The notes beneath the pieces were generated by a model that was not told the DNA's origin, searched no databases, and saw only the letters and a program-made list of their open reading frames with translations. A program made the translations under genes and the position numbers. A stretch of 33,828 bases of DNA from a virus. This document shows, in pieces, positions 3,803-29,692 of this stretch (position 1 is its first letter; each line of letters begins with the position of its first letter). The stretch covers positions 1 through 33,828 of IMG/VR virus record IMGVR_UViG_3300044858_001304. The stretch is one strand, 5' to 3'.

Positions 3803-6480
3803 GGTTTTTTCCTTCCGAGTATTGCTTCTGTAATCCGTGGATCAAACGTCTTTTGTATCGGTAGTTGCGGATCACCTGTAGGATAGACGGGTCCGTAAGC
3901 ATCAGACTTACCACGCATACCACCCAGCTTCGCTCCCGCACCAAACTCCTGCTCAAGCGCCTGAAGCTCCAAAGCAGCAGCAGCCTGCTTCCGCCCATCA
4001 ATCGGGTACTTGTTGTTGATGATCTTCTTCAACTCTTCAGCACGTTGGATAAATGCCTGAGTCGCATCTACCATTGGCCCTTGCTGCCAGAACTCAGTCT
4101 TGTTCATTGTATCAATGGGAGGGCGCTCTGGCGAAGCACGGTTTCGTACAGCCTCTGCCGTGATTTCTTCAAGACTCATCAGCGGAGACTCTTGAGGGAT
4201 AACACGTTCGCCTTTAGCGGCCCTATTCCACATGGAAGGCGTAGGGCCACCACGGGGGGTTCTTTGATTGCGTACCGGAGGAAGGCCAAGTGCGCTGTTA
4301 GGATTAACCATTCCCGGTGCAGTTGGTAGCGCAGCACCTTCATCGGTTATCAAACTACGCAACGCCGCAGCAACCTCTGCTTGCGGAAGCATTGGCGCAG
4401 CAACACCCTCAGACAAAGGCTGTCCCTCATACCCTAGTTTCGTAGGTGCTTCAGGAAGCCCATAATTTGTCAGCCCAGCAGGTTGCTCTTGAACGAAATC
4501 AATCGTCACATTATTAGTACGAACAGGAGGAACCTGCGGCTCTTGTGGGATTCCTCCACGCTCATACAGAGGACGTAAGCGAGGGTCTAATGGAATCTCA
4601 ACAGATGGCGCTGTAGGTGATTGAGGTGTTGTATCGAACTCACCCTGCTTCTTCAACGGGCCTAATACCACATCATTATCAGCTACCCCAAGCAACCCCC
4701 TACCCTGCGGAATTGCTCCCTGCGGAGTCGGAGTAACCAATGGCTCGCCAACCGGAGCAAGCGACAGCGGTTCAGGTCCAATAGGAGTTTTTTCGTACCC
4801 AAGAGCCTGACGAATCGGACGAGCATCAACAGGGATAGCGTTCTTGTTCTGGTACGCTTTCGATGCAATACGGCGAGCTCCAAGGATACTTGCCATCTCG
4901 CCAAGTCCAGCTCCAGCGACAGCGCCACCCAACGTACCCATACCAGGCGCTAGTACAGTTCCAACTCCCATGCCGATAGCAGCAGGAACACCTGACCTAG
5001 CCAGATGCCTCTGAATGGTAGAGAGAGGCCCACCTGAACTGAACGACTCAGGGAACACACCGGCAACCTTTCCAAGGTCAGCAAACGGCCCGGTAAGCGC
5101 ATTGTCCTCTGCGGTAAGTTTCGCCAACTTACCCATGTCGACCTTGCCTGTGTTCTCGTTGAAGATGTCTTCAAGAGTGTAAGTCTTAGCTTGCGTTGCA
5201 CGGTCTTGCTTGTATTGGTCGAGCAGTTTCCCAAGTGCAGGGTTGGCTTCTGCCTGACGTTGCAGGTTCTGGTCGATCAAGCCTTCCAGTTCGCGTGAGA
5301 TGCCTTCACGAACCTTCGCCATAGCCATCTTTTCAGGGCCGAGATCAGTCCCCTTGCGGATATCCCTAGCCTCTTTACGGAGTTGCTCAATGTTCCGAAG
5401 AACATCAGCACCGCTCATCCCGTTTTGGATATCGGTGATAGCTCTATCAATCAGGTTTGACGCTACTTTTTGTGCGGCCTCATCTCCGATAACCCGAGCA
5501 GGCTGAAGCCTAGCAATGGCTTGACTAACAGCGCCATCATCAGTGAATCCACCCATCTGTTGGATAGTTGCGCGTGAGCCACCAGCAGCATCTCTTGCTG
5601 CTTGGATAGACGCAAGAGACAAAGGAGTGTCTGCCGCAATACCGACATCCAACTTCAACGCCTGCTCTGGCCTGCCTACGTTGGCCTTGGTAAGCGCCTC
5701 TGCCTTGTCGTTGGCTTTGACAAAAGACTCTGTAACCTTGTTCTTGACCGAAGGATTGACCTTGCGCGGATCAATCGCAATTCCGTACTGGTTTGCAATC
5801 CTTCCTGCATCAATCATCCCTGCATTGGAAACGCTCTCACGCACTGCCTGAGACTTTAGGTAAGGATCTTGTGCCGTACCAGTTACGTTCGGACGGTTGG
5901 CTGCTTTGTTCAGCCCTGCACGGCCCATCAGGATCGTAGCTATGGCCTCTGGAGCCTTCTCGCCAATCATCTCAGCGCCAAGCTCTGTTCCGGTAAGTTC
6001 AGCGATCCCGCTGTTCCTTCCCATGAACGCGCCAAGTTTCCCAGCGTACTCAATCGGCAGCGCAGCCGCCTTTGACGTTACCTCGCCTTCAGCAGTCCTT
6101 GGCTGATAGGTGTATTTGTCCTGCACGGCACGAACACGCTCGGCGGCTTGATCTACCGTACCGCCACCAAGCAGTTTGTTGATGCCTTCGATGCCGCCGA
6201 CAGCAGATGCCCCCATGCCGGTAAGCATCTGTGTTCCTGCTTCGGCCAGACCATAAGCACCGCGCACAAGCGGGTTGCTGCCCATCTGCTCAAAGCGGCT
6301 AGGCTCATTCACAGGAGGCGGCGCTGGCAATACGGCGGCAGGAGCACCACGCATCACACGGTACTGCCCTGCATCGCTCTTCTGCGCCTTGGAAACAGGA
6401 ACCCACTCGCCTCCAATCATGGCGCGAAACTCTCCAGCATCGTTCTTCTGGACTTTTTCTGCGGATTCCCAATCAGCCAT
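3799..6480 (-). CDS. Large putative internal/ejection virion protein (893 aa)
   Basis: ATG 6480 overlaps the preceding stop as TAATG; an in-frame ATG five codons upstream is less likely. The first 40 residues carry a duplicated motif, VQKNDAGEFRAM then AQKSDAGQYRVM, flanking a GGEWVPV stretch. Residues about 70-110 are Ala/Gly-rich and hydrophobic. A second Gly/Ala-rich segment (AAIGMGVGTVLAPGMGTLGGAVAGAGLG) could insert in a membrane. Between them lies a charged, helical region; the C-terminal third is Pro-rich and low in order. Large helical proteins with membrane-active segments, placed between tail and fibre genes, are typical of podovirus ejection proteins that enter the host envelope with the DNA. 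No lysozyme or protease motif is obvious. Confidence 0.6.
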   Translation of the reverse strand: MADWESAEKVQKNDAGEFRAMIGGEWVPVSKAQKSDAGQYRVMRGAPAAVLPAPPPVNEPSRFEQMGSNPLVRGAYGLAEAGTQMLTGMGASAVGGIEGINKLLGGGTVDQAAERVRAVQDKYTYQPRTAEGEVTSKAAALPIEYAGKLGAFMGRNSGIAELTGTELGAEMIGEKAPEAIATILMGRAGLNKAANRPNVTGTAQDPYLKSQAVRESVSNAGMIDAGRIANQYGIAIDPRKVNPSVKNKVTESFVKANDKAEALTKANVGRPEQALKLDVGIAADTPLSLASIQAARDAAGGSRATIQQMGGFTDDGAVSQAIARLQPARVIGDEAAQKVASNLIDRAITDIQNGMSGADVLRNIEQLRKEARDIRKGTDLGPEKMAMAKVREGISRELEGLIDQNLQRQAEANPALGKLLDQYKQDRATQAKTYTLEDIFNENTGKVDMGKLAKLTAEDNALTGPFADLGKVAGVFPESFSSGGPLSTIQRHLARSGVPAAIGMGVGTVLAPGMGTLGGAVAGAGLGEMASILGARRIASKAYQNKNAIPVDARPIRQALGYEKTPIGPEPLSLAPVGEPLVTPTPQGAIPQGRGLLGVADNDVVLGPLKKQGEFDTTPQSPTAPSVEIPLDPRLRPLYERGGIPQEPQVPPVRTNNVTIDFVQEQPAGLTNYGLPEAPTKLGYEGQPLSEGVAAPMLPQAEVAAALRSLITDEGAALPTAPGMVNPNSALGLPPVRNQRTPRGGPTPSMWNRAAKGERVIPQESPLMSLEEITAEAVRNRASPERPPIDTMNKTEFWQQGPMVDATQAFIQRAEELKKIINNKYPIDGRKQAAAALELQALEQEFGAGAKLGGMRGKSDAYGPVYPTGDPQLPIQKTFDPRITEAILGRKKP

Positions 6481-13322: not shown

Positions 13323-14054
13323 TCAAATCTCTGTTTGGACTTCCTGCTTCGGAGGACGGCCACGACGCTTCGCAGATTCTACAACATCTACGACAGGCTC
13401 ATCGTCAAGAAGGTCTGAGGCACTGATCCTCTGCTCGACATACGGCTGTTGCATCACCTGTGGCTGCTGCGGGATCATTTGCTTCAGCGCCTCAACCTGA
13501 GCCTTCAGCCCGTCAAGCGTTGCCTTCAACTGCTTGTTCTCGGACTCAAGCGCAGACATCTGGATCGTCAAGCCGCCGTGGTCTTTCACGGACGCAAGCC
13601 AGTTCTTCGCCTTGTTGCGGAGGTCTAAAGCGCCCATTCCAATGCGCTTCATGCCCTCGTCGTTGATTTGCGCTAGGTCTTCCACGGTCAGGCAGTTGAT
13701 GGCAATAAGCATCTTCTGCTGTGCCGGCGACACAACGCCCCAACCGAGGATCGGCGTACCATGCAGCGGCATCTCCTGCCCGTTCTGCCACTTCTGGTAG
13801 CCTTCTTTCCACAGGCTTGCCCACTGCTGCGGGATGCGTCCATCACGAACACCACGATCAAGGTCTTCAAGCCAACGGGTGACTTTCTGCTCAACACAGT
13901 CTTTGGAGTACGGCGGCGTCACTAAAGCGAAATCAACATCCTTCGCAATGTACCTGCCTTCGCGCAAGCTGGCTTCCTTGTCTTCGACAGGGCGGCGCTC
14001 AAAGCGAACATAAGCAGGACGTTCTTCGCGGTTCGACACTTCTCCGACGGACAT
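13323..14054 (-). CDS. Conserved podovirus protein with coiled coil and C-terminal AT-hook (243 aa)
   Basis: Begins MSVGEVSNREERPAY after AAGGAGCC. Residues about 15-150 form a conserved block (YIAKDVDFALVTPPYSKDC, then GTPILGWGVVSPAQQKML and EDLAQINDEGMKRIGMG) that I recall from other proteobacterial podoviruses without a known role. A coiled coil follows (MSALESENKQLKATLDGLKA), then a Gln/Pro-rich linker (MIPQQPQVMQQPYVEQ). The last 15 residues contain KRRGRPPK, a canonical AT-hook core that binds the minor groove of A/T-rich DNA. It sits between the capsid and tail genes. A DNA-contacting virion or assembly role is inferred. Confidence 0.65.
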   Translation of the reverse strand: MSVGEVSNREERPAYVRFERRPVEDKEASLREGRYIAKDVDFALVTPPYSKDCVEQKVTRWLEDLDRGVRDGRIPQQWASLWKEGYQKWQNGQEMPLHGTPILGWGVVSPAQQKMLIAINCLTVEDLAQINDEGMKRIGMGALDLRNKAKNWLASVKDHGGLTIQMSALESENKQLKATLDGLKAQVEALKQMIPQQPQVMQQPYVEQRISASDLLDDEPVVDVVESAKRRGRPPKQEVQTEI

Positions 14055-19257: not shown

Positions 19258-21531
19258 TCAGTCTCCTTCGGTTTCAGTTTCGGTGGATTCTTCTTTGGCT
19301 TCTTTCATTGCCTGTGCATTGATCATGGCAATCTGGATCTGCGTATCAGCCTGTATGCGAGCCATTTGCAGTTGCGTATCCTTCTGGATATTGGCCTTCA
19401 TCTGCTCAATACTGCGCTGGGATGCCAACTTCGCTGCATCGACTTCCTGCTGTGCCTGCAACTTGGCGCGTTCAAGACTCATGTCCATCTGCGCCTGCAT
19501 CTGCGCCGCCCTGACTTCAAGCGCCATCTCTGCCTGCCTGCTCTGGAACTCCATCTGCAACTTTTGCTGTTCCTGCGCTGCGGATTGCTGCATTTCAGCC
19601 TGTGCCTGTGCCGCAGACTGCTGCATCTCGGTCATCTTGATCTTGGCTTCCTGCTGCTGCTTCGCCATTTCAGCCTGTGCTGCGGCGGCTTCGGCATTGC
19701 CCTTTTGCGGTGCCTTCATGTTCTTGAAGTGGTCTTCCACCTCAACGCCAAACCGGAACCGGCGAACCACGGCAAGCAACAGTGACTGCGAAGCCTCAAA
19801 CGGCATGGCACCAGACTCCACCATCGGCGTCAAGCCGGCCATCAACTGACCCATCGCGTTCATGAAGTCACCGATTTGCTTCTGGTCTTCGGTAGCCTCA
19901 ACGTCGATGGTCGAGTTGGTTTCAATGTCGATCCGGTAGGAACGCTGCATGTCATTCTTGAGCAGTTCCAGAACCTGCTCCCACTCAGGCGCACTCAGGG
20001 CTTTCTCAATCTGCGGATCAATCTGTGGGGGCGGCGAAGGAGGTTGCCCCATCTGCTGCGCCATCATTGCTTGCTGCTGTACTTGCGCCTGTTGCGCCTG
20101 CATCACCATCTGCGCCTGCTGCTTCTGTGCAGAAGTCACAAACGGAAGGCCAGTAGCCGAAGCCCATGTCTCAACCGAGAACTTGGTAGCAGCAATCTCA
20201 AGCATGATCCGCAGCACATCACGGGAGTAGCGTTGCACTTCCTTTTGCAACCGCTTCAAACGCATCGTACCCCAAGATTCCTTGATTTTCTGAGCTCCAA
20301 GAGTCTCGGAAGCTACAGACTGACCACGGATGATGTCGGAAACACCAGTAATCTCGTAGATCACACGCTTGCACTGCTCACGCGCCGCAACCAGATTGGT
20401 CGCTACTGTGATCAACTTCTCTAGCGGCATGAACCAGATTGCGTTGTCCAGACCCTTCTCTGTGGATAACTGCGATGCAGAGTCAGTAGGTATAAGCGTA
20501 TTGTCAGCGCCTTCGAACAAATCACCCAACTGTGCGCTCAAAGCGCCGTCATAAACGCCACGCACCTTCAGCGCCTCGACTACGCGGCCAATGCGAGTTG
20601 TAATCTTGTTGAGTTCTTTCGCCTGATTCTCGTACAGCTTGTACATCGCTACCGGAAGCAGATCGTTCGACTTCTCAATGAACTGCAACGGACGAGGGCA
20701 GTTGAAGAACCCGGTCAATCCTAGTGGATCATCTTCTTCCTTGAGGTATCCGTCGTTGTAGGCAGGGGAGATGTACAGTATACGCTTTCCTCCGGCCCTG
20801 TCCCAGATTTGATATACGAGTGCAGTCTTACGCCCACCCTGATCTTCTGCTTGGTCGCGACCACCCGTACCTGTTCCTTTTTCTTCTTCTTCCTCGTCTT
20901 CGCCTTTGGTAAAGGTAATGTTTTTTACGACATCCTTACCGAACAAACGAGTACATTCTTCCTTGTCCAGATATTCCTCGTATGCCATCCACGGCACCTT
21001 CGACCACTTCTTCGCATACCCGAAATACACCTTGTCCCACCCACGCGAGTCAGGGCAGACCTGCTCCCACTTCATTACCGGTGGGTCTTCGGAGCCTTCT
21101 TCTGGGTCAATAATCTCTGCGTCGTACTTGATCGACGTAACACCCCTTCCGGGAAGTAATCCATCAAGCGTTGCGTATCGCATTGCCTGATCGAATGTCT
21201 CGTATCCTTCCACATTCGTATCGCACAGGAACTCAAGCATTCTCTGCGCGGCCATTGCCGACGCTTTTCCTATAGGGTCTTCATCTTTGAACCGGCGCTG
21301 CACAACAGGTCGCGGGGTCTGGGAAAACACCGCCGGCAACAGTGTTTCGACGTTGCTGAACAGGATGTTAAACGGGATTTTGTCAGGGCATTTGCCTGAA
21401 TAGATGTCGATAACCTCGTTACCATCTTTACGGAAGTCTTTTTCGCGCTTCTTTGCGCTGGCAATCTCACCTAGCCAATGCCTGACTTCTTCCGAAGGTT
21501 CTTTCTTCTTGTCTACCATGCTGTTTGCCAT
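19258..21531 (-). CDS. Portal protein, P22-like length (757 aa)
   Basis: Starts at ATG 21531 behind AAGGAAAAGAT. The N-terminal half has portal hallmarks: a helical clip region (VRHWLGEIASAKKREKDFRK), NILFSNVETLLPAVFSQTPRPVVQRRF, then WEQVCPDSRGWDKVYFG. A helix-rich core includes FIEKSNDLLPVAMYKLYENQ and IRGQSVASETLGAQKI. The final 115 residues are Gln/Ala/Met-rich coiled coil with repeated MQQSAAQ, comparable to the long C-terminal barrel of P22 portal. It forms the dodecameric DNA channel on which TerL docks. The gap before it holds a candidate promoter. Confidence 0.92.
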   Translation of the reverse strand: MANSMVDKKKEPSEEVRHWLGEIASAKKREKDFRKDGNEVIDIYSGKCPDKIPFNILFSNVETLLPAVFSQTPRPVVQRRFKDEDPIGKASAMAAQRMLEFLCDTNVEGYETFDQAMRYATLDGLLPGRGVTSIKYDAEIIDPEEGSEDPPVMKWEQVCPDSRGWDKVYFGYAKKWSKVPWMAYEEYLDKEECTRLFGKDVVKNITFTKGEDEEEEEKGTGTGGRDQAEDQGGRKTALVYQIWDRAGGKRILYISPAYNDGYLKEEDDPLGLTGFFNCPRPLQFIEKSNDLLPVAMYKLYENQAKELNKITTRIGRVVEALKVRGVYDGALSAQLGDLFEGADNTLIPTDSASQLSTEKGLDNAIWFMPLEKLITVATNLVAAREQCKRVIYEITGVSDIIRGQSVASETLGAQKIKESWGTMRLKRLQKEVQRYSRDVLRIMLEIAATKFSVETWASATGLPFVTSAQKQQAQMVMQAQQAQVQQQAMMAQQMGQPPSPPPQIDPQIEKALSAPEWEQVLELLKNDMQRSYRIDIETNSTIDVEATEDQKQIGDFMNAMGQLMAGLTPMVESGAMPFEASQSLLLAVVRRFRFGVEVEDHFKNMKAPQKGNAEAAAAQAEMAKQQQEAKIKMTEMQQSAAQAQAEMQQSAAQEQQKLQMEFQSRQAEMALEVRAAQMQAQMDMSLERAKLQAQQEVDAAKLASQRSIEQMKANIQKDTQLQMARIQADTQIQIAMINAQAMKEAKEESTETETEGD

Positions 21532-21585: not shown

Positions 21586-21614
21586 AAAATACCCTATATC
21601 TCGCAATAAATCAA
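21586..21614 (-). promoter_or_regulatory. Candidate sigma-70 promoter for portal and downstream head genes
   Basis: On the minus strand TTGATT (21614-21609), a 17-nt spacer and TATTTT (21591-21586) match -35 and -10 boxes at four of six positions each. It begins at the TerL stop codon and lies 55 nt before the portal start, in the largest gap of the packaging region. It could add transcription of portal, scaffold and capsid. Confidence 0.35.
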
Positions 21615-23050
21615 TCACTGCTCCTAGTAAGCCTCATTTTCTTGAAGTGGTCACTCTTGATCTGCCCCATGTGCAGCCCAACCACGTTGCCAGCCATCAG
21701 CCTCTGCTCGAACGGCTGTTCTGCCGTCAGCGCCTTCGATCTGCGCCATGTCACCGCCACAGTGCGGAACCCGTCTGCCGCGTGGCTAGCCCCGTCATGC
21801 TTCGGCGTCGAGGCAAACACGTTGTTTTCCTCATCGAACTCGCGCCGGTATGCCTTCAGGTGGTCAATCCCTATCTCGCACTTGTCACCATCGAACCGAC
21901 ACTTAGGCAACGTAGCCCGTGCTGCCTGGATACCCTCTTGCACATCCAGCCTTGGCGCAATCGCAAACCGGCCCAAACAGTCGTTATGATCCTTGTTGAA
22001 CTCAATGAACTGCTGGAGTATCGACTTACCACCCGCAGCAATCGTCCGTGGTCGGGCATCGTGCGGTAACCAGTGTGTTCCGTAGCGGTATCCAAGCTGA
22101 TCGTGCTTGTTCTTCAGCGACAGAGCGTAGAACTCGACATCCTTGAAGTTATCCTCAATGTAATCGATCACATTCAACTCATCACCAATGACCTGATAGA
22201 ACCAGAACACCGTGTCATCGTCAAAACCCAAGTCACTACCAGTAAATACCGGATACCCCTCCGTGTGCGGCACCAATACCGTAGTAGCCTCCGTCTGCAC
22301 CCTTCCGTTGGCCTCCAGTTTCGAGATGCAATCACCCCAAATAGCCCCCGGCATCGCCGCTTCGAACGAAACGTAGTATTCCTGCATGAACAAGGCCATT
22401 CCATACTCGTCGCCATGCTCTGCTTGCAACTGCCTAAGAATCGAACTCAACTGTTCCGCACTGAATATCCCGCTCTCGTCAGCGTTCAGCGAGCTAAAGA
22501 ACCACCCCGGCTCATTCTGAGCAAACTCGCACAGCCGCTTGAAGTGATTCTTGCCCCGTGGCGTCGAGTTAAACCCCGCCCACCCACCGTTTTCCTCCAA
22601 GATAGGCATCAAGTAACCCCATGACGAGGGCTGACTAATAGCATACTCGGAAAACACCAACCCTACAGGCGGGGAACCAACCAAGGAATTAAAGTTGTCA
22701 CTACCAACCAACTGGAACGTACTTCCGCAATGGAATTCGATCATCATCGACTGATCCAGCGTACGTTTCCTGATCTCCTGCGGGAACGCCCTGTCTATCC
22801 GCTTCTTACCGCTATGTCCGTCGATAGCGTCCCACATCGACTTACGCGCCTGACTGTACTCCGGCAACATGTACCAGTAGTTACCAATCCTCTCATGCGC
22901 CGCACATGCCGTGTGGTGCAGAAACACCTCATCCTTACCCGCCCGTCGGTGCCACTTGGCAACCGCCCTCTTCCCGCCACCACTCAGATATTCCCATAGC
23001 GGCCTCTGGTATGGCCGGGGTGTCCATTCGTGCGGTAGCGTTATCCTCAT
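21611..23050 (-). CDS. terL: Terminase large subunit (479 aa)
   Basis: ATG 23050 overlaps the TerS stop as ATGA. The ATPase domain shows a Walker A-like WHRRAGKD at residues 33-40, Walker B region VGLVFSEYA at 129-137 with E135 as probable catalytic Glu, and coupling motif NSTPRGKNHF at 161-170. The RNase H-like nuclease domain shows metal-binding aspartates D273 (FTGSDLGFDDD), HD 330-331 and D426 (SHAADGFR). It pumps DNA into the prohead through the portal and cuts it. The Walker A is the Arg-rich deviant form common in phage terminases rather than GxxxxGKS. Length is usual for the family. Confidence 0.93.
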   Translation of the reverse strand: MRITLPHEWTPRPYQRPLWEYLSGGGKRAVAKWHRRAGKDEVFLHHTACAAHERIGNYWYMLPEYSQARKSMWDAIDGHSGKKRIDRAFPQEIRKRTLDQSMMIEFHCGSTFQLVGSDNFNSLVGSPPVGLVFSEYAISQPSSWGYLMPILEENGGWAGFNSTPRGKNHFKRLCEFAQNEPGWFFSSLNADESGIFSAEQLSSILRQLQAEHGDEYGMALFMQEYYVSFEAAMPGAIWGDCISKLEANGRVQTEATTVLVPHTEGYPVFTGSDLGFDDDTVFWFYQVIGDELNVIDYIEDNFKDVEFYALSLKNKHDQLGYRYGTHWLPHDARPRTIAAGGKSILQQFIEFNKDHNDCLGRFAIAPRLDVQEGIQAARATLPKCRFDGDKCEIGIDHLKAYRREFDEENNVFASTPKHDGASHAADGFRTVAVTWRRSKALTAEQPFEQRLMAGNVVGLHMGQIKSDHFKKMRLTRSSD

Positions 23051-23529
23051 ATTTCAGCCTCAATCACATTGCTGGCCGGTATATCCTGCACGGGGTATCC
23101 TTTATCTTCTCCTGAGCCTATCCGAACTACCCCCCCCCTCTCCACCACCACCGTTATCCCTCCTCCACCACCAGACATATCCTTTTCACCGTACTTCGCC
23201 CTGTCCAGTTTCGCCGCCAGTTTCATGTAGTGCTCTGCCTGCAACTTTGCCAGTGCAACCGTCTCACTATCCGCACTCTCCACTACATTGGTCGCCTTCC
23301 ACTCCAACTCGTCAGCCCTAGCTCTACCCGCCAACGCAACAGCGTCTGGACAGTTCTTTTCCATCCATCCACGCAACACTACATACGGTATCTCAAACGA
23401 CCTCGCTATGTCCGTCGGTCGCTCTCCTTCCATCAGCCGACACATCAACTGATCATGCAACCACTCGTCACCATGACCATCAACCAGCGAGTCAAGCCGA
23501 GCGTATCCAAGGTTCGTCATTTTGCCCAT
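23047..23529 (-). CDS. terS: Terminase small subunit (160 aa)
   Basis: The first gene of the leftward operon. Residues about 25-60 resemble a helix-turn-helix: RLMEGERPTDIARSFEIPYVVL then RGWMEKN. A helical oligomerisation region follows (SADSETVALAKLQAEHYMKL), then a Gly-rich and strand C-terminus (GGGGGITVVVERGG). It recognises phage packaging sites and delivers DNA to TerL, which overlaps its stop codon. ATG 23529 is used; ATG 23520, better spaced from AAGG, is an alternative giving three residues less. Confidence 0.85.
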   Translation of the reverse strand: MGKMTNLGYARLDSLVDGHGDEWLHDQLMCRLMEGERPTDIARSFEIPYVVLRGWMEKNCPDAVALAGRARADELEWKATNVVESADSETVALAKLQAEHYMKLAAKLDRAKYGEKDMSGGGGGITVVVERGGVVRIGSGEDKGYPVQDIPASNVIEAEI

Positions 23530-24101
23530 GCCTTATGGTAGCACGGGTTTGGCAAGGCGAATATGGGCCACGGGAATATTGGGGCATACCGCAAGAGTCT
23601 CAGATCGCCATCCCCGCCTGCCCGAAGCACCCCCCCACCCACAAAGGCTATGAGCCCAGTAGGCAACAGGACGTAGTCAACTTCGCACACCACCAACACA
23701 CCAACTGCGCCAGGCAGACATCGAGGTCTGATGCTGGCTAGGATGCTGGCGTATCGCGTAGGCATTGCGGGATGTAGCAGATGTGGCAGATGTGGCGCGT
23801 TATCAACAAACGCAATTATCATTTGTGGCAGATGTGGCGGATTGTTGGTAAACCTATATCGTAACTGCATATCCGCAATCGCAACTATGACAATCGCGTA
23901 TAGGGCCATGTGGCGCATATGTGGCACATGTGGCAGATGTGATGCATTTTCACAAACTTTTGTAACGCGCACGCACACACAGGGGGACTTTCCAAAAAAC
24001 GGTAACATCTGCCACATCTGCCGTACCATATCAGTAACTTGTTGATTACATTCCAAGTGGCAGATGTGGCGGATTGTTGGCAAAGTCTTTCAGCAAAAGT
24101 G

Positions 24102-24120
24102 TTTTGCATTTACTGCAACA
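24102..24120. promoter_or_regulatory. Operator-like palindrome 1 (TTTTGCA-N5-TGCAACA)
   Basis: Half-sites TTTTGCA and TGCAACA with a 5-bp spacer form a near-perfect palindrome with one mismatch. The same half-site and spacer occur beside the Cro-like gene at 29740-29758. It lies about 80 bp before the first early gene and upstream of a TATAGT box. Binding by the Cro-like protein is inferred. Confidence 0.45.
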
Positions 24121-24126
24121 ATACTG

Positions 24127-24155
24127 CTGGCTATTGTGCATTGCTGTGTTATAGT
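24127..24155 (+). promoter_or_regulatory. Candidate early promoter for the 24.2 kb operon
   Basis: A TATAGT -10 box (24150-24155) lies 45 bp before the first early start codon. At 17-nt spacing the -35 position reads CTGGCT, a weak match, so activation or an alternative -35 is possible. The box is flanked by operator-like palindromes, as expected for a regulated early promoter. Confidence 0.35.
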
Positions 24156-24162
24156 TACATTA

Positions 24163-24179
24163 CTGCAACTGGATTGCAG
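24163..24179. promoter_or_regulatory. Operator-like palindrome 2 (CTGCAA-N5-TTGCAG)
   Basis: A perfect 6-bp inverted repeat with 5-bp spacer just downstream of the TATAGT box. The 10-mer TTACTGCAAC at 24160-24169 repeats exactly at 24110-24119, 50 bp (about five helical turns) away, as if two bound dimers face the same side of the DNA. Confidence 0.4.
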
Positions 24180-24199
24180 CAACTTACAGGGGATTAAAA

Positions 24200-24502
24200 A
24201 TGAAATCAAAAACTCTCAACATTGGCATGAATCGCGGCAAAGCTCGCCTGTGGATCGAAGGTAATTGGCTGGCTCAGGCCGGGTTTGCTCGCGGGATGGC
24301 ATACACCGTGGAGGCATTCCCGGACAATGGCGTTATCAGCATCAAGGCCACGCCAGACGGTTCCCGCAAGGTAGCTGGCACTACTTCCCGGCCAATTATG
24401 GACTTGACCAAAGCTGGAGACATGGCAGCTATTGGTGGTGCGGGTTCCGTGGTGCTGCTGGAATGCCGCGCACCGGGATGGATTGTTGTCTCTGAAACTT
24501 GA
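24200..24502 (+). CDS. SymE/AbrB-fold-like early protein (100 aa)
   Basis: First gene of the early operon, ATG 24200 after AGGGGATT. Residues about 14-50 (KARLWIEGNWLAQAGFARG, then a VEAFPDNGVISIKA strand pair) match the pattern of SymE-type and AbrB-like swapped-hairpin domains, in which LxGxWLxxAGFxxG precedes a beta hairpin. SymE in E. coli is an SOS-linked toxin with an AbrB-like fold. The rest is Gly/Ala-rich with strands and ends PGWIVVSET. A role in DNA or RNA binding, or host take-over, is possible. The match is by pattern only. Confidence 0.6.
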   Translation: MKSKTLNIGMNRGKARLWIEGNWLAQAGFARGMAYTVEAFPDNGVISIKATPDGSRKVAGTTSRPIMDLTKAGDMAAIGGAGSVVLLECRAPGWIVVSET

Positions 24503-25766: not shown

Positions 25767-26306
25767 ATGTTAACCATAGAATCCGGCCTGCAAAAGGCCG
25801 TTAGTAGGGGCTTGCTGAAATGGGCGGCTGGCCGTGCTATGTTCTGTCCCCATTGCGATACCGTTGCCGATTATCGCCGCTATGTGCTAGTGCATCGTGG
25901 CGACAATTCCCTTGCATGGGAAGGTTGCGCGGCCTGCTATGACAGGCTTGGCCTTGATCCGGTGCCCGATACATGGGAAGTTATCCGCGAAGCCGCCAGC
26001 AAGCCTCGCAAGCCGCCTGCATTGCCGCTCACGTCTACCATCCGCGACAAAAACGGCAAGCCGCAAGATATAGCTTGCTGCCGCGCATTCGATATGTACG
26101 GCCATACCTTTGTCGCGCATCCTAGCCTGGTTAATCCTGCCATGTGGGTGATAACGCATACCGGCACTGGAGCTGCGGCATGTGTCCCGCAAAAGTCTAA
26201 AGCCGCCGCTATCCGCATAGGAATGGCTAACCTTGATCGTGTTGGTCTTGACGGGTTCACTACGGCGCTGGCCTATGCCATGCAATCTATCTCTAAGGGG
26301 AAATAA
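25767..26306 (+). CDS. Zinc-ribbon hypothetical protein (179 aa)
   Basis: Starts at ATG 25767 two nt after the previous stop, with AAAGGGG upstream. A possible zinc ribbon is formed by CPHC near residue 27 and CAAC near residue 54. Residues 70-100 are Pro/Arg-rich. The C-terminal half holds a domain with YGHTFVAHPSLVNPAMWVIT, probably strand-rich and DNA- or ligand-binding. It is the largest gene in this part of the operon besides GP88. No family is recognised; zinc binding is inferred from cysteine spacing. Confidence 0.65.
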   Translation: MLTIESGLQKAVSRGLLKWAAGRAMFCPHCDTVADYRRYVLVHRGDNSLAWEGCAACYDRLGLDPVPDTWEVIREAASKPRKPPALPLTSTIRDKNGKPQDIACCRAFDMYGHTFVAHPSLVNPAMWVITHTGTGAAACVPQKSKAAAIRIGMANLDRVGLDGFTTALAYAMQSISKGK

Positions 26307-26308
26307 AC

Positions 26309-26470
26309 ATGCATACCATCCATCCGAAAGCCGCAGCCGCAGCCACCGCTGCCCGTAACTGGAAACGCTGGGGCGCATACGCTTCCTATCGCTACGCTGA
26401 AAAACGGGGCGCATTGCCCTATCTGACCATTGCGCGGGTTCTTGCCTGCGCGGAAAGGGCCGGGGTTTAA
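26309..26470 (+). CDS. Small basic hypothetical protein (53 aa)
   Basis: ATG 26309 two nt after the previous stop, behind AAGGGGAAATAAAC. It encodes MHTIHPKAAAAATAARNW followed by basic aromatic sequence (YASYRYAEKRGALPYL) and ends ACAERAGV. It is Ala-rich, basic and helical. Genes of similar size with basic aromatic sequence occur in phage early operons. Function unknown. Confidence 0.6.
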   Translation: MHTIHPKAAAAATAARNWKRWGAYASYRYAEKRGALPYLTIARVLACAERAGV

Positions 26471-26472
26471 CT

Positions 26473-26592
26473 ATGCACGACCCTGACGATTTCGACAGCT
26501 CAGGATTTGCCGACTTGTTGCAGGATGCAATTATTACCATCCTGCTGATGCTGCTAGGCTTGGCGATTATCTCGCCGTGGTGGCTAGTATGA
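26473..26592 (+). CDS. Small single-pass membrane protein (39 aa)
   Basis: ATG 26473 follows GGGG. An acidic N-terminus (MHDPDDFDSSGFADLLQDA) precedes one hydrophobic span (IITILLMLLGLAIISPWWLV). By charge the acidic end would face the periplasm or stay cytoplasmic near a basic partner. It overlaps the next tiny ORF as ATGA. It could be a superinfection-exclusion, host membrane or accessory holin-like protein; none can be chosen. Confidence 0.55.
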   Translation: MHDPDDFDSSGFADLLQDAIITILLMLLGLAIISPWWLV

Positions 26593-26651
26593 GCGCACTG
26601 ATTGCTTCCATCGTGGCATTGATCCTGATCATAATTCGCGGTATAATCTAA
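26589..26651 (+). CDS. Membrane micropeptide (20 aa)
   Basis: ATG 26589 overlaps the 39-aa gene's stop as ATGA. The peptide is MSALIASIVALILIIIRGII, almost wholly a membrane span. It is the last ORF before the terminator of the operon. Coupling supports translation, but at 20 residues it could also be chance. Confidence 0.4.
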   Translation: MSALIASIVALILIIIRGII

Positions 26652-26692
26652 TTCCCCTCGCGCCGCTGTTCTGGGAAGCTCGGCGGCGCATT

Positions 26693-26728
26693 ATCCCGAA
26701 ACCGTTTAAGTCGCTTCGGGATTTTTTT
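26693..26728 (+). terminator. Rho-independent terminator of the early rightward operon
   Basis: ATCCCGAA (26693-26700) pairs perfectly with TTCGGGAT (26715-26722) around a 14-nt loop, followed by seven T residues. A second GC-rich stem, GCGCCGC (26660-26666) with GCGGCGC (26683-26689), lies just upstream. No T-run exists on the minus strand, so it stops rightward transcription before it meets the leftward primase operon. Confidence 0.85.
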
Positions 26729-26924
26729 CGCCTATAGCATGTGCATTGCAGGCAGCTATAGCCTCTTTAGATGTTGCGTATATGCCTATGGTACGGCGAG
26801 CGCATTGCGGCCCGTGTAAAGCCGTATATCCGGTGCTGAATCGCATTATCAGATACGTCTCGGATCTAAGGGTTATCTTTCCGGTGCGGCGGAATTGCAG
26901 AGGCTCAGAATTCATCTGGTGCAT
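26706..26924 (-). CDS. Small hypothetical protein downstream of primase (72 aa)
   Basis: Opens at ATG 26924 within the 3' end of the primase gene; ATG 26915 three codons later is an alternative. The sequence has a strand-like block (TGKITLRSETYLIMRFSTG), then IGIYATSKEAIAACNAHAIG, resembling small phage proteins with a terminal helix. It overlaps the terminator region of the opposite operon. It is basic; function unknown. Support is moderate: correct strand, overlap with primase and protein-like composition. Confidence 0.5.
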   Translation of the reverse strand: MHQMNSEPLQFRRTGKITLRSETYLIMRFSTGYTALHGPQCARRTIGIYATSKEAIAACNAHAIGEKNPEAT

Positions 26925-29373
26925 TCCATCCTGATGCAGGGGCCGGGACTATATCCAAGCCAAGGATATACCGTGCTCCCGATCCTCCCTTAGCCTTTCC
27001 ATATCCCCGAGCTTCCATCCTCTGGCTGAATCGCTTCTGGCTCACCACGCCTTCCCCATGCGATTCAACAAACGCTTTATAGCTTCGGTATGCCTCGCCG
27101 GATTGCACCTTAAGCGAAGCACCTACCGTGCATTGTTCTTCGATCCAGCGACCCATCGTATCCTCTTCTGCAAGGTATGCATGGGTGGCATCCTTGACCT
27201 GCTGGGGCTTCGACAATCCTATACGCTGCCATTCCAGGCATCCATCGATCATCCATTGCATGATTGCCGGCCATTCCTCTCGGAGCAATTCCGGCAGGTT
27301 CTGGATGCGGTCTGCCTCTGGGATCGAATCGGGGAATTCTACAAAGTGCATGCGGCGGCGGATTTCCTCGCCGGTATTCTTAAAAGCCGGTTTGAAGTTC
27401 CCGTTGATCATCAGCTTGAATTCTGGCTTGAAGGTGAATTGCTTCTCATACAGTCTCCGTGCCGATACCGTATCCCGGCCCGTGATCAGTTTAAGCAATG
27501 CCTCGTTCCATCGTGCGCCCTCGTCGGGTTCGCTGGTGCGTACCATCCGAGCACCTGCAAGGCAGGCCATCTCTTCCGTATGCCGTTCGTGCTTGCTTTC
27601 CATAAGCATCTCTATCTTCGCCGTGGCGCAGTATCCGCCCTCGTCGGCTTTCCCAAGGATGTCGCCTATGCAGTCTATAAATTTCGACTTGCCACTATTC
27701 CCGGCCCCGTGGATGAACAGGAATCCCTCCTCCCGGCAGTCTCCGGTCAGGATGTAACCGCACCATCTCTGGTAGTAATCGCGCATCTCTTTGTCGCCAC
27801 GGGTGCATCGATCCAGAACTTTGTCCCATTGCGGATGCTTGCCGCGCTTCGGGGATACTGCTGCCTGCCTGGTTATCATATCACTGCGTTCGGGTGCGCG
27901 TACCTTTCCGGTTTTGAGATCCAGCGTACCTTCTGGAGTACCCATCAACCAAGGGTTCGCATCCCACTGTGCAGGTAGCGTGGCATGGGCAGGAATACAG
28001 GCGGCAAGGTCGCGCACGTTGGCTATGTTGCGTTTTGTGCATAAGGCTTTACGCGCAGTCTCGGATAGCGACTTCGCTTCAAGCCAGTATGTAGCTCGAG
28101 TCATTTCCTCGCCAATGATATTTGTGATGCCATTGATCTCATCAATGCACCACCTAGCACCATCCCACTTAACCCACTTACCCCATGCGACAACGTAGCA
28201 CCAGTCCTTGCCATCGTGGTTCGACCAGTGACGAGCCATGCTGAGTTCTGAGAATTCCGGCGGAAGGTAGTCCTGCGTGATAGCTGTATGCGGCTTTATC
28301 TTGGTGACGTTTGGAGGGAGTTGTTCTGCTGGTGGCGGGAGGATTGTGGGATCAAGGACGGGGACGTATTCACCTTCTATCGGCGCGTTTTGCACAGTTT
28401 TTTTTTCCTGTTCGAGTTTATGCTTTTCGAGTTCGCGGCTTGTCAGCAACGAAACACGCTCCTCTGCAAACGTCACGATATCGTCCCTAGTCCATCCCTC
28501 CGATACCGCATCTGCCAGATCCCATCCTTGGGGTCTGCAACTCGTGTCTAGATAGCGTACTGTGCATCCTATCGCCATCAAATGTGCCGCGACTCCGTAC
28601 ATGGCTTGTTCGCCTGCTGCGTCAGCGTCGGGAACCAAAAGTATATTCCTGTTCGCCAGCGGATGCCAATCTACTTTCTTGACGGCATTCGATCCTCCCG
28701 GCCATGTGATGCAGACCATCCCCGGCAACAGCACCTGCGCTGCATCTGCCGCCTTCTCGCCTTCAACTATGCAGACCTTTGCATTCGGCCTTTCTGCCAG
28801 CCTGTCGAGTCCGTACAGTGGTCGCACCGGACTCCATACCTTGCACCGCCAGGATGGTTCGACATTGGCACTCATGCGGCCATACGTCCACGGGCGATAG
28901 TCCTTACTGCCGTCTGGCTTGAGGTAGCGAACTACATATCCCATAGGTACGCCGCGTGAATCACGGTAGCACCATGTCTGCTGGATTTTCATATTCGGCA
29001 GATCGAAGCTATCGTATGATTCCAGAGGCTCCATGCTCGTCCAAGCATTCGGCTTGATGGGCTTTTCTGGGATGATTCGGTGATCATTGCGAACGAAGTG
29101 GTTTGCCTCTAGACGCTTGATTGCCTCGCCTTCATCACAGCACTCGAACTCCTTGATGACGTCGATGATTGTCCCTGTCTTCCCGCAGGCAGAGTGACAA
29201 TGCACCCGCCATATTCCATCATCTCCCTCGAACACCGACATGCTTGGATTGTTGTCATCGTGCCAGATGCATTTGCATGAGTACTGATGTCCGCGCTGGA
29301 TCAACTCCACACCATAGCCGGTCAGTACGTTGATGATGTTGGTATTGCGCTTGAGTTCAGTCAAGTCTGTCAC
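26905..29373 (-). CDS. Primase-helicase: CHC2 zinc finger, TOPRIM, D5/SF3 helicase (822 aa)
   Basis: A GTG start at 29373 has GGGGAGG 7 nt upstream and overlaps the previous stop as GTGA; a TTG six codons earlier is less likely. A CHC2-type zinc finger spans about 33-63 (C35, H38, C59, C63). The TOPRIM domain shows VEGEKA at 203-208 and PDADAAG at 248-254. After a D5-N-like region (WLMGTPEGTLDL), the SF3 helicase has Walker A GAGNSGKS at 556-563, then GARMVRTSEPDEG and arginines in EEIRRRMHF. It would make primers and unwind DNA at the phage origin, as P4 alpha and D5-like proteins do. The iteron region at 23.7-24.1 kb is a possible target. Confidence 0.93.
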   Translation of the reverse strand: MTDLTELKRNTNIINVLTGYGVELIQRGHQYSCKCIWHDDNNPSMSVFEGDDGIWRVHCHSACGKTGTIIDVIKEFECCDEGEAIKRLEANHFVRNDHRIIPEKPIKPNAWTSMEPLESYDSFDLPNMKIQQTWCYRDSRGVPMGYVVRYLKPDGSKDYRPWTYGRMSANVEPSWRCKVWSPVRPLYGLDRLAERPNAKVCIVEGEKAADAAQVLLPGMVCITWPGGSNAVKKVDWHPLANRNILLVPDADAAGEQAMYGVAAHLMAIGCTVRYLDTSCRPQGWDLADAVSEGWTRDDIVTFAEERVSLLTSRELEKHKLEQEKKTVQNAPIEGEYVPVLDPTILPPPAEQLPPNVTKIKPHTAITQDYLPPEFSELSMARHWSNHDGKDWCYVVAWGKWVKWDGARWCIDEINGITNIIGEEMTRATYWLEAKSLSETARKALCTKRNIANVRDLAACIPAHATLPAQWDANPWLMGTPEGTLDLKTGKVRAPERSDMITRQAAVSPKRGKHPQWDKVLDRCTRGDKEMRDYYQRWCGYILTGDCREEGFLFIHGAGNSGKSKFIDCIGDILGKADEGGYCATAKIEMLMESKHERHTEEMACLAGARMVRTSEPDEGARWNEALLKLITGRDTVSARRLYEKQFTFKPEFKLMINGNFKPAFKNTGEEIRRRMHFVEFPDSIPEADRIQNLPELLREEWPAIMQWMIDGCLEWQRIGLSKPQQVKDATHAYLAEEDTMGRWIEEQCTVGASLKVQSGEAYRSYKAFVESHGEGVVSQKRFSQRMEARGYGKAKGGSGARYILGLDIVPAPASGWNAPDEF

Positions 29374-29513
29374 AGCATTGCCTCCCCGCAACGATCCATC
29401 GCATGTTCGTACTTCTGCGTCGGAGTTAGCTCTGGTATCGGCTTGCGTTCGCGCAGCAGCGGCTCACCGAATTCATCGTACTTGGTGACTATCCATTCTT
29501 GTTCTTGGCTCAC
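29370..29513 (-). CDS. Small hypothetical protein between Cro-like and primase genes (47 aa)
   Basis: The GTG at 29513 overlaps the Cro-like stop as GTGA and has GGAGGA 7 nt upstream, so the long upstream extension of the frame is rejected. The protein is acidic (SQEQEWIVTKYDEFGEPLL, then ELTPTQKYEHAMDRCGEAML). It ends overlapping the primase start. No family is recognised. Coupled position suggests a role with primase or replication control. Confidence 0.6.
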   Translation of the reverse strand: MSQEQEWIVTKYDEFGEPLLRERKPIPELTPTQKYEHAMDRCGEAML

Positions 29514-29692
29514 TTCTTGTTCCTCCGCGCCACAAGCTTGCCGCCAGTAGCGGCCTCCAGTATGCGCTGCGCCTTGTACGGGATTGCACCAGATTTTTCC
29601 CAGTGCCGAATGGCAGGTTCCGTATAGCCAATCGCAAGCGCAATAGCCAAACGGTTGCCTCCGTAGTGATCCATCAATTGTTTGAGTGTCAT
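29510..29692 (-). CDS. cro: Cro-like helix-turn-helix regulator (60 aa)
   Basis: MTLKQLMDHYGGNRLAIALA followed by IGYTEPAIRHWEKSGAIP is the compact helix-turn-helix of P22-type Cro/YdaS-like proteins, ending in a basic tail (KLVARRNKK). It is the first gene of the leftward replication operon and sits next to a perfect TTTTGCA-N5-TGCAAAA palindrome, a likely binding site. Cro proteins repress early promoters and drive lytic growth. No CI partner is visible in the window; it may be outside or absent. Confidence 0.8.
   Translation of the reverse strand: MTLKQLMDHYGGNRLAIALAIGYTEPAIRHWEKSGAIPYKAQRILEAATGGKLVARRNKK

Follow-up and report, generated by a model that had tools for sequence, protein, structure and literature searches.

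The window, as the stretch of DNA analysed here is called, covers an entire IMG/VR virus record (33,828 bp), and a DNA similarity search of isolated phages with it gave no match. The leftward structural genes begin with an Sf6-type small terminase gene (terS, 23047–23529), next to which lies the large terminase gene (terL, 21611–23050), and the early genes run rightward from 24200. The first early gene (24200–24502) encodes a SymE-toxin-like product (E 2.7e-4, below the Pfam cut-off). A P22-Cro-like gene was identified by Pfam at 29510–29692, and a primase-helicase gene lies leftward at 26905–29391. terS and the first early gene are 670 bp apart, and the gap contains a repeat array that begins about 240 bp upstream of terS, at a distance of 2.8 kb from the primase-helicase gene. 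No sigma-70 promoter-like site was detected in 23400–24400. The reading frames overlapping the array matched no PHROG family; an earlier note on this DNA had named evidence of a conserved protein in the reverse-strand frame as a refutation of an origin. The one match in an Rfam search, to a microRNA, was below threshold and was attributed to chance.

The repeat array between terS and the early genes

The iteron clusters that the earlier note had described were found again at every position, and the array lies far above chance. The 400 bp from 23701 to 24100 contain 125 pairs of repeated 8-mers, against a mean of 5.7 and a maximum of 33 in 5000 simulated first-order Markov segments. In 8-mer repeat scans of the whole window this segment ranks first, and the next separate peak has 38 pairs. 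Copies of the 16-nt dimer ATGTGGCRSATGTGGC with at most 3 mismatches number 11 in the window (expected 1.6), 10 of them within 23772–24070. Taken over the window as a whole, the 9-mer GATGTGGCR by itself shows only mild enrichment (31 matches versus 22 expected), and it is therefore the clustering that counts.

The array is composed of five separated sites on a strong 9-bp period (lag-9 identity 0.64–0.71 across all sub-arrays), all but one of them on the + strand and the remaining one inverted, so that GTGGCAGAT units are followed by a 64-bp gap with an alternating tract and then by an inverted copy. Three tandem 9-bp iterons, GATGTAGCA-GATGTGGCA-GATGTGGCG, occupy 23771–23797 (+ strand, lag-9 identity 0.71). 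A second iteron pair with a GGATTGTTGG tail lies at 23822–23848 (+ strand), and the third cluster, CATGTGGCG-CATATGTGGCA-CATGTGGCA-GATGTGAT (23907–23943, + strand), constitutes the left arm of the inverted pair, whose right arm is the iteron pair at 24002–24023 on the − strand. The fifth pair is at 24055–24080 (+ strand). The second and fifth sites carry the two copies of an exact 24-bp duplication, which the note had given correctly (23825–23848 is identical to 24057–24080). The alternating purine/pyrimidine tract ACGCGCACGCACACACA (23965–23981), which lies within the 64 bp that separate the inverted iterons, is with 17 nt the longest in the window, the runner-up having 14 nt.

This tract was absent from the earlier note, and so were four exact TTGTTGRYWA sites: TTGTTGATAA at 23800–23809 on the − strand, and TTGTTGGTAA (23842–23851), TTGTTGATTA (24039–24048) and TTGTTGGCAA (24074–24083) on the + strand. 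These are 4 of the 6 such sites in the window, all inside the array (23800–24083), and two of them fall in the exact 24-bp duplication; possibly they bind a second protein. The site at 23800 is the opposite-strand reading of the DnaA-like box TTATCAACA proposed earlier. This box does match a DnaA box at 8 of 9 positions, but it does not speak for DnaA, as near-matches in the window number 10 against 6 expected. The only perfect DnaA box in the window lies at 20461, and the boxes are not clustered above chance as at a DnaA-dependent origin, the array having one 8-of-9 match. Likewise, GC skew, which had been suggested as a test for the origin, proved uninformative, since it tracks gene direction, and its change at 23.5–24 kb falls where transcription diverges. 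Beside the array, an AT-rich flank that is also the early-gene leader extends over 24071–24230. With 62–64% A+T, its 100-bp windows starting at 24071–24141 rank near the top for A+T content in the window, and it may be an unwinding site.

The primase-helicase and the elements behind related genes

The proposed initiator is the primase-helicase, in which Pfam identified a CHC2 zinc ribbon (6.7e-10), a Toprim-like domain (Toprim_3, 3.1e-4, below its cut-off), D5_N (2.9e-25) and DUF5906 (2.5e-9); the protein thus has the D5/SF3 helicase core of such an initiator. Its modelled C-terminus, confident from about residue 740 and with pLDDT mostly at least 90 in the last domain, is a winged helix that resembles the P4 origin-binding domain (1KA8; Z 8.4, 74 residues, 2.4 Å) and RFX (Z 10.1). 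The sequence profile of the C-terminus matches P4 alpha weakly, and the link to P4 therefore rests on the fold. RFX reads its site mainly via the wing, which would fit the covariation of wing and motif described below. By alignment, the wing of the window primase corresponds to the segment KAKGGSGARY, at about residues 799–808 (26968–26997, − strand), the proposed reader of the iterons. No residual iterons were found 3′ of the primase gene in 26200–27000.

To collect related primases, an alignment of three of them (from the window, from locus L054 and from phage AcaML1) was used, and 80 of 292 confirmed IMG/VR relatives were fetched. Since the search was by protein only, the sample is blind to the motif. 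IMG/VR searches with terS, the first early gene or the window primase alone yielded nothing, and the relatives fetched share only 31–36% identity with the window primase. In most of these loci, a motif pair, a tract (e.g. TACACGCGCGCGCGTA, often with GTTAACC or GGTAAC), an inverted motif and then a RuvC-like gene, recognised by eye from its LDLGTTTGW start, lie just past the stop codon of the primase gene. With fixed thresholds, inverted arms of at least 8 nt around an alternating tract of at least 10 nt were present in 56 of the 76 loci with readable 3′ flanks versus 7 of 206 random segments drawn from the same loci, counts that are not independent because many of the loci are closely related. 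The lag-9 identity in the arms of the relatives peaks at 0.44, with about 0.2–0.3 at other lags. A stricter rule asks for inverted arms of 11 nt or more that are 40–90 apart and enclose an alternating run of 14 nt or more. Under it the window has a single qualifying place, 23928–24017, with arms at 23930–23940 and 24005–24015, a gap of 64 and a run of 17, and 60 simulated Markov windows have none.

The letters of the motif follow the wing. By the last 220 residues of the primase, the nearest five loci are L109, L129, L110, L117 and L105. Four of these five are the only D5 loci in the set with GTGGC[AG]GA dimers, and all four have the wing KHKG[GT]KGARY, where the window has KAKGGSGARY; among about 60 other loci no such dimer was found. 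Other wings go with other motifs: RHRGGKGARY with GTGACG, KWRN..G.RG with CTGACGCA or CTGACGGA, RWRNPKGAMG with CTGAAGGAT, and R.R..GGAKAL-like wings with TGACCGA. Some primase relatives have the motif class CTGACGGAT, distinct from GTGGCAGAT. The window and L054 (wing SKGGKGVRCY) fit the pattern. The uncorrected Fisher value for wing versus motif is 1.6e-6, computed with classes defined after the data had been seen, and the true support is weaker than this value because the loci are related.

Terminase relatives and other occurrences of the motif

The gene order of the window recurs in L005 and L004, whose terL products are 97% and 86% identical to that of the window: a helicase gene, opposite-strand early genes, a repeat-bearing gap, terS and terL. 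The repeats in the gap are TTATGGTCAT in L005, and ATCAAAGATT and TGTCACAGTTAG in L004. The helicase of L005 is a DUF5906 protein with a weak RepB-primase match, and that of L004 is the C-terminal end of an apparent DUF3987 protein (below the Pfam cut-off); no copy of the window primase turned up in the L005 record. Conservation of the repeats in related phages, a check suggested earlier, is thus not seen in these close terminase relatives. The earlier note had held that absence of the repeats from relatives with the same primase would count against an origin, and as L005 and L004 encode other helicases, their differing repeats do not amount to such an absence. Instead, repeats and helicase were exchanged together while terL was kept. 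terS has also been replaced across the three phages, and therefore these three alone cannot separate the initiator from terS as the partner of the repeats. Repeat peaks in the more distant terminase relatives L020, L022, L023, L028 and L030 are coding.

A separate noncoding element, consisting of a G-tract, about 8 nt and GGCAGGCGGGG, lies closer to terS at 23560–23655 of the window on the − strand. It occurs upstream of terS/terL in phages with related terL (50–97%), namely in L005 (5431–5509), L004 (2744–2821), L006 (4536–4628), L007 (835–924), L008 (5599–5689), L011 (5389–5476) and L024 (1589–1680), and it is kept although the adjoining repeats and terS differ. Weak matches outside the seed, in L022, L012, L029 and L002, are likewise upstream of terL in the same orientation, and none was found in 80 control loci. 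The element is a candidate packaging (cos/pac) site, and a better choice for that function than the array.

Outside these phages, an exact 18-mer scan of IMG/VR with the motif found 12 loci, mostly coding. L054, found in this way, has GTGGCAGATG units on both strands that begin about 40 bp past a D5-type primase-helicase gene. Clusters of the GTGGCAGATGTGGC type, which may be a shared iteron or a case of convergence, were seen beside helicases of several families in unrelated phages or mobile elements: at 4300–4580 in L054; at 2176–2290 in L050, directly behind an AAA_25 helicase gene and 0.5 kb upstream of an Sf6-type terS; and in or near DUF3631 and DUF3987 genes in L057 (1010–1475) and L101 (4797–4942), where they may be independent. 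A blastn search of phages and plasmids with a concatemer of the motif gave no match, low-complexity masking being possible, and a paired-motif scan of bacterial genomes yielded mainly coding VAD repeats and minisatellites. A literature search found no paper with the motif, and nothing relevant on alternating tracts or Z-DNA with phage iterons.

Reading of the array as a replication origin

Repeats of the same style lie behind genes for the same kind of enzyme, and their spelling shifts with the DNA-reading loop of that enzyme. The array is therefore very probably the cis-acting replication origin of the phage, used by its own primase-helicase. The earlier note had proposed this use, and the layout, the covariation, the domain match to P4 and the comparison with P4 crr support it. 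From the repeats, the layout shared with the relatives, the 9-bp periodicity, the covariation of motif and wing and the fold match of the winged helix, we infer binding, melting, priming and use as an origin along the following lines. The winged-helix C-terminus of the primase-helicase would bind the GTGGCAGAT iterons, which form pairs with 9-bp spacing and occur in the two orientations around the alternating tract. Through this binding SF3 helicase rings would be loaded, probably one on each arm. The DNA may then be melted by the helicase at the core or at the AT-rich flank, and the first primers would come from the protein's own primase domain.

Some observations stand against this origin reading. 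The relatives have their elements adjacent to the primase gene, whereas here 2.8 kb separate the two, and GTGGCAGAT-like clusters also occur beside non-SF3 helicases (L050, L057 and L101). The low identity of the primase relatives and the lack of an alternating tract in P4 crr count against it as well. As regards the distance, adjacency to the initiator gene is usual in the P4-type family but not required, since P4 ori lies far from alpha and the pRN1 origin still functions after relocation. Most likely the array has been displaced from the usual place behind the primase gene; the opposite-strand early-gene cassette intervenes, and the origin thus sits between the early genes and terS/terL.

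The position exactly between divergent late and early genes is also a common one for an operator. A repressor or early/late switch protein, either the Cro-like product of 29510–29692 or the SymE/AbrB-like product of the first early gene (below the Pfam cut-off), might bind the array to control divergent terS and early promoters. This is improbable: no further dimer copies were found in the window near the cro-like gene or other promoters, the array region has no recognisable sigma-70 site, and the layout and motif-wing covariation go with primase genes in loci with other neighbours. A double role of the array in replication and autoregulation is possible. Use of the repeats as a pac array read by the small terminase is very unlikely. 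The proximity to an Sf6-type terS, the variation of both terS and repeats among the window, L005 and L004, and the similar cluster upstream of an Sf6-type terS in L050 would agree with such use, yet in the 80 primase loci the element lies between the primase and the RuvC-like gene, and the element at 23560–23655, conserved with terL and nearer to terS, is the better packaging candidate. Growth of a minisatellite by slippage, with no role in replication, is the least likely explanation. GCCACATnn 9-mers do form simple tandem arrays elsewhere, and several of the places where the paired motif matched genomes consist of plain tandem repeats or of GTG-GCA-GAT runs within coding sequence, but five separated sites in two orientations, an exact 24-bp duplication and a primase-linked core tract are unlike the products of slippage.

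As an origin, the array is of a known, P4-like kind, in which an SF3 initiator acts with iterons. In P4 (NC_001609) the annotated crr lies 3′ of the alpha primase-helicase gene and has type-1 repeats 9 bp apart with inverted copies (lag-9 identity 0.62), and the window array likewise consists of short repeats that are paired at 9-bp spacing and occur in either orientation; P4 alpha and the window primase also share, by fold, the C-terminal winged helix (1KA8). The two differ in the repeat letters (GTGAACAGT in P4, GTGGCAGAT in the window), in the alternating tract, which P4 crr lacks, and in position, the array being beside terS and P4 crr next to the primase. In the AcaML1-like phages, represented by AcaML1 itself (JX507079) and the 80 IMG/VR loci, inverted iterons of 9-bp period likewise flank an alternating tract, and the primases have a C-terminal winged helix of matching wing class. 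Their elements adjoin the primase, usually with one pair per arm, whereas the window has five sites at a distance. No description of these elements as origins was found in the open-access literature, although an account in a subscription journal is possible.

Origins behind the gene of the replication protein are known from other systems. The origin of the Sulfolobus plasmid pRN1 lies about 100 bp behind the SF3 primase-helicase gene and is functional when relocated, and pRN1-type origins have a 21-nt stem and a 58-nt loop (PMC4234260). This type and BIP-1 resemble the window in having an origin behind an SF3 primase-helicase gene; unlike the window, pRN1 has an archaeo-eukaryotic primase and an origin read as a stem-loop, with no iterons reported. 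At the origins of SaPI Rep and SCCmec Cch2, the iterons follow immediately after the gene of the initiator helicase, and it is the C-terminal domain of Cch2 that binds the Cch2 origin (PMC7581432). In SaPI and SCCmec, in contrast to the window, helicase and primase are separate proteins, and SCCmec has AAGTG as its iteron.

With its conserved alternating tract, its correspondence between wing and motif and its displaced position, the array is a variant of which we did not find a description in the open-access literature. It is about as likely as not that a recognition code between wing and iteron holds across the family of D5-type phage primase-helicases, that the alternating, Z-DNA-prone tract enclosed by inverted iterons is a conserved, functional part of these origins, and that initiator and origin travel as one swappable cassette at a fixed site beside the terminase genes. 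Most origins of environmental phages are unknown because origin sequences are not conserved. Here the grammar is conserved though the letters differ, and the letters can be traced to ten residues of the initiator, so that origins could be located in uncultivated phages by sequence alone. The wing-motif link also offers a way to test how a winged helix changes its specificity, and the layout allows the part of the alternating tract in melting to be asked. The terminase relatives also show helicase and probable origin being replaced as a pair where the large terminase stays nearly unchanged.

P4 needs both ori and crr, and a second cis site of this kind was not found in the window. AcaML1 (L042) has a second, unannotated repeat cluster, GGTGGAAACC in both orientations, at 13495–13787, about 2.3 kb past the primase, which is a possible second cis site. 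A second repeat family also occurs 0.7–3.5 kb 3′ of the primase in L124, L157, L171 and L184, with the repeats GGTTTGCA / GTGCAAAC and, in L124, GGTGGTCA.
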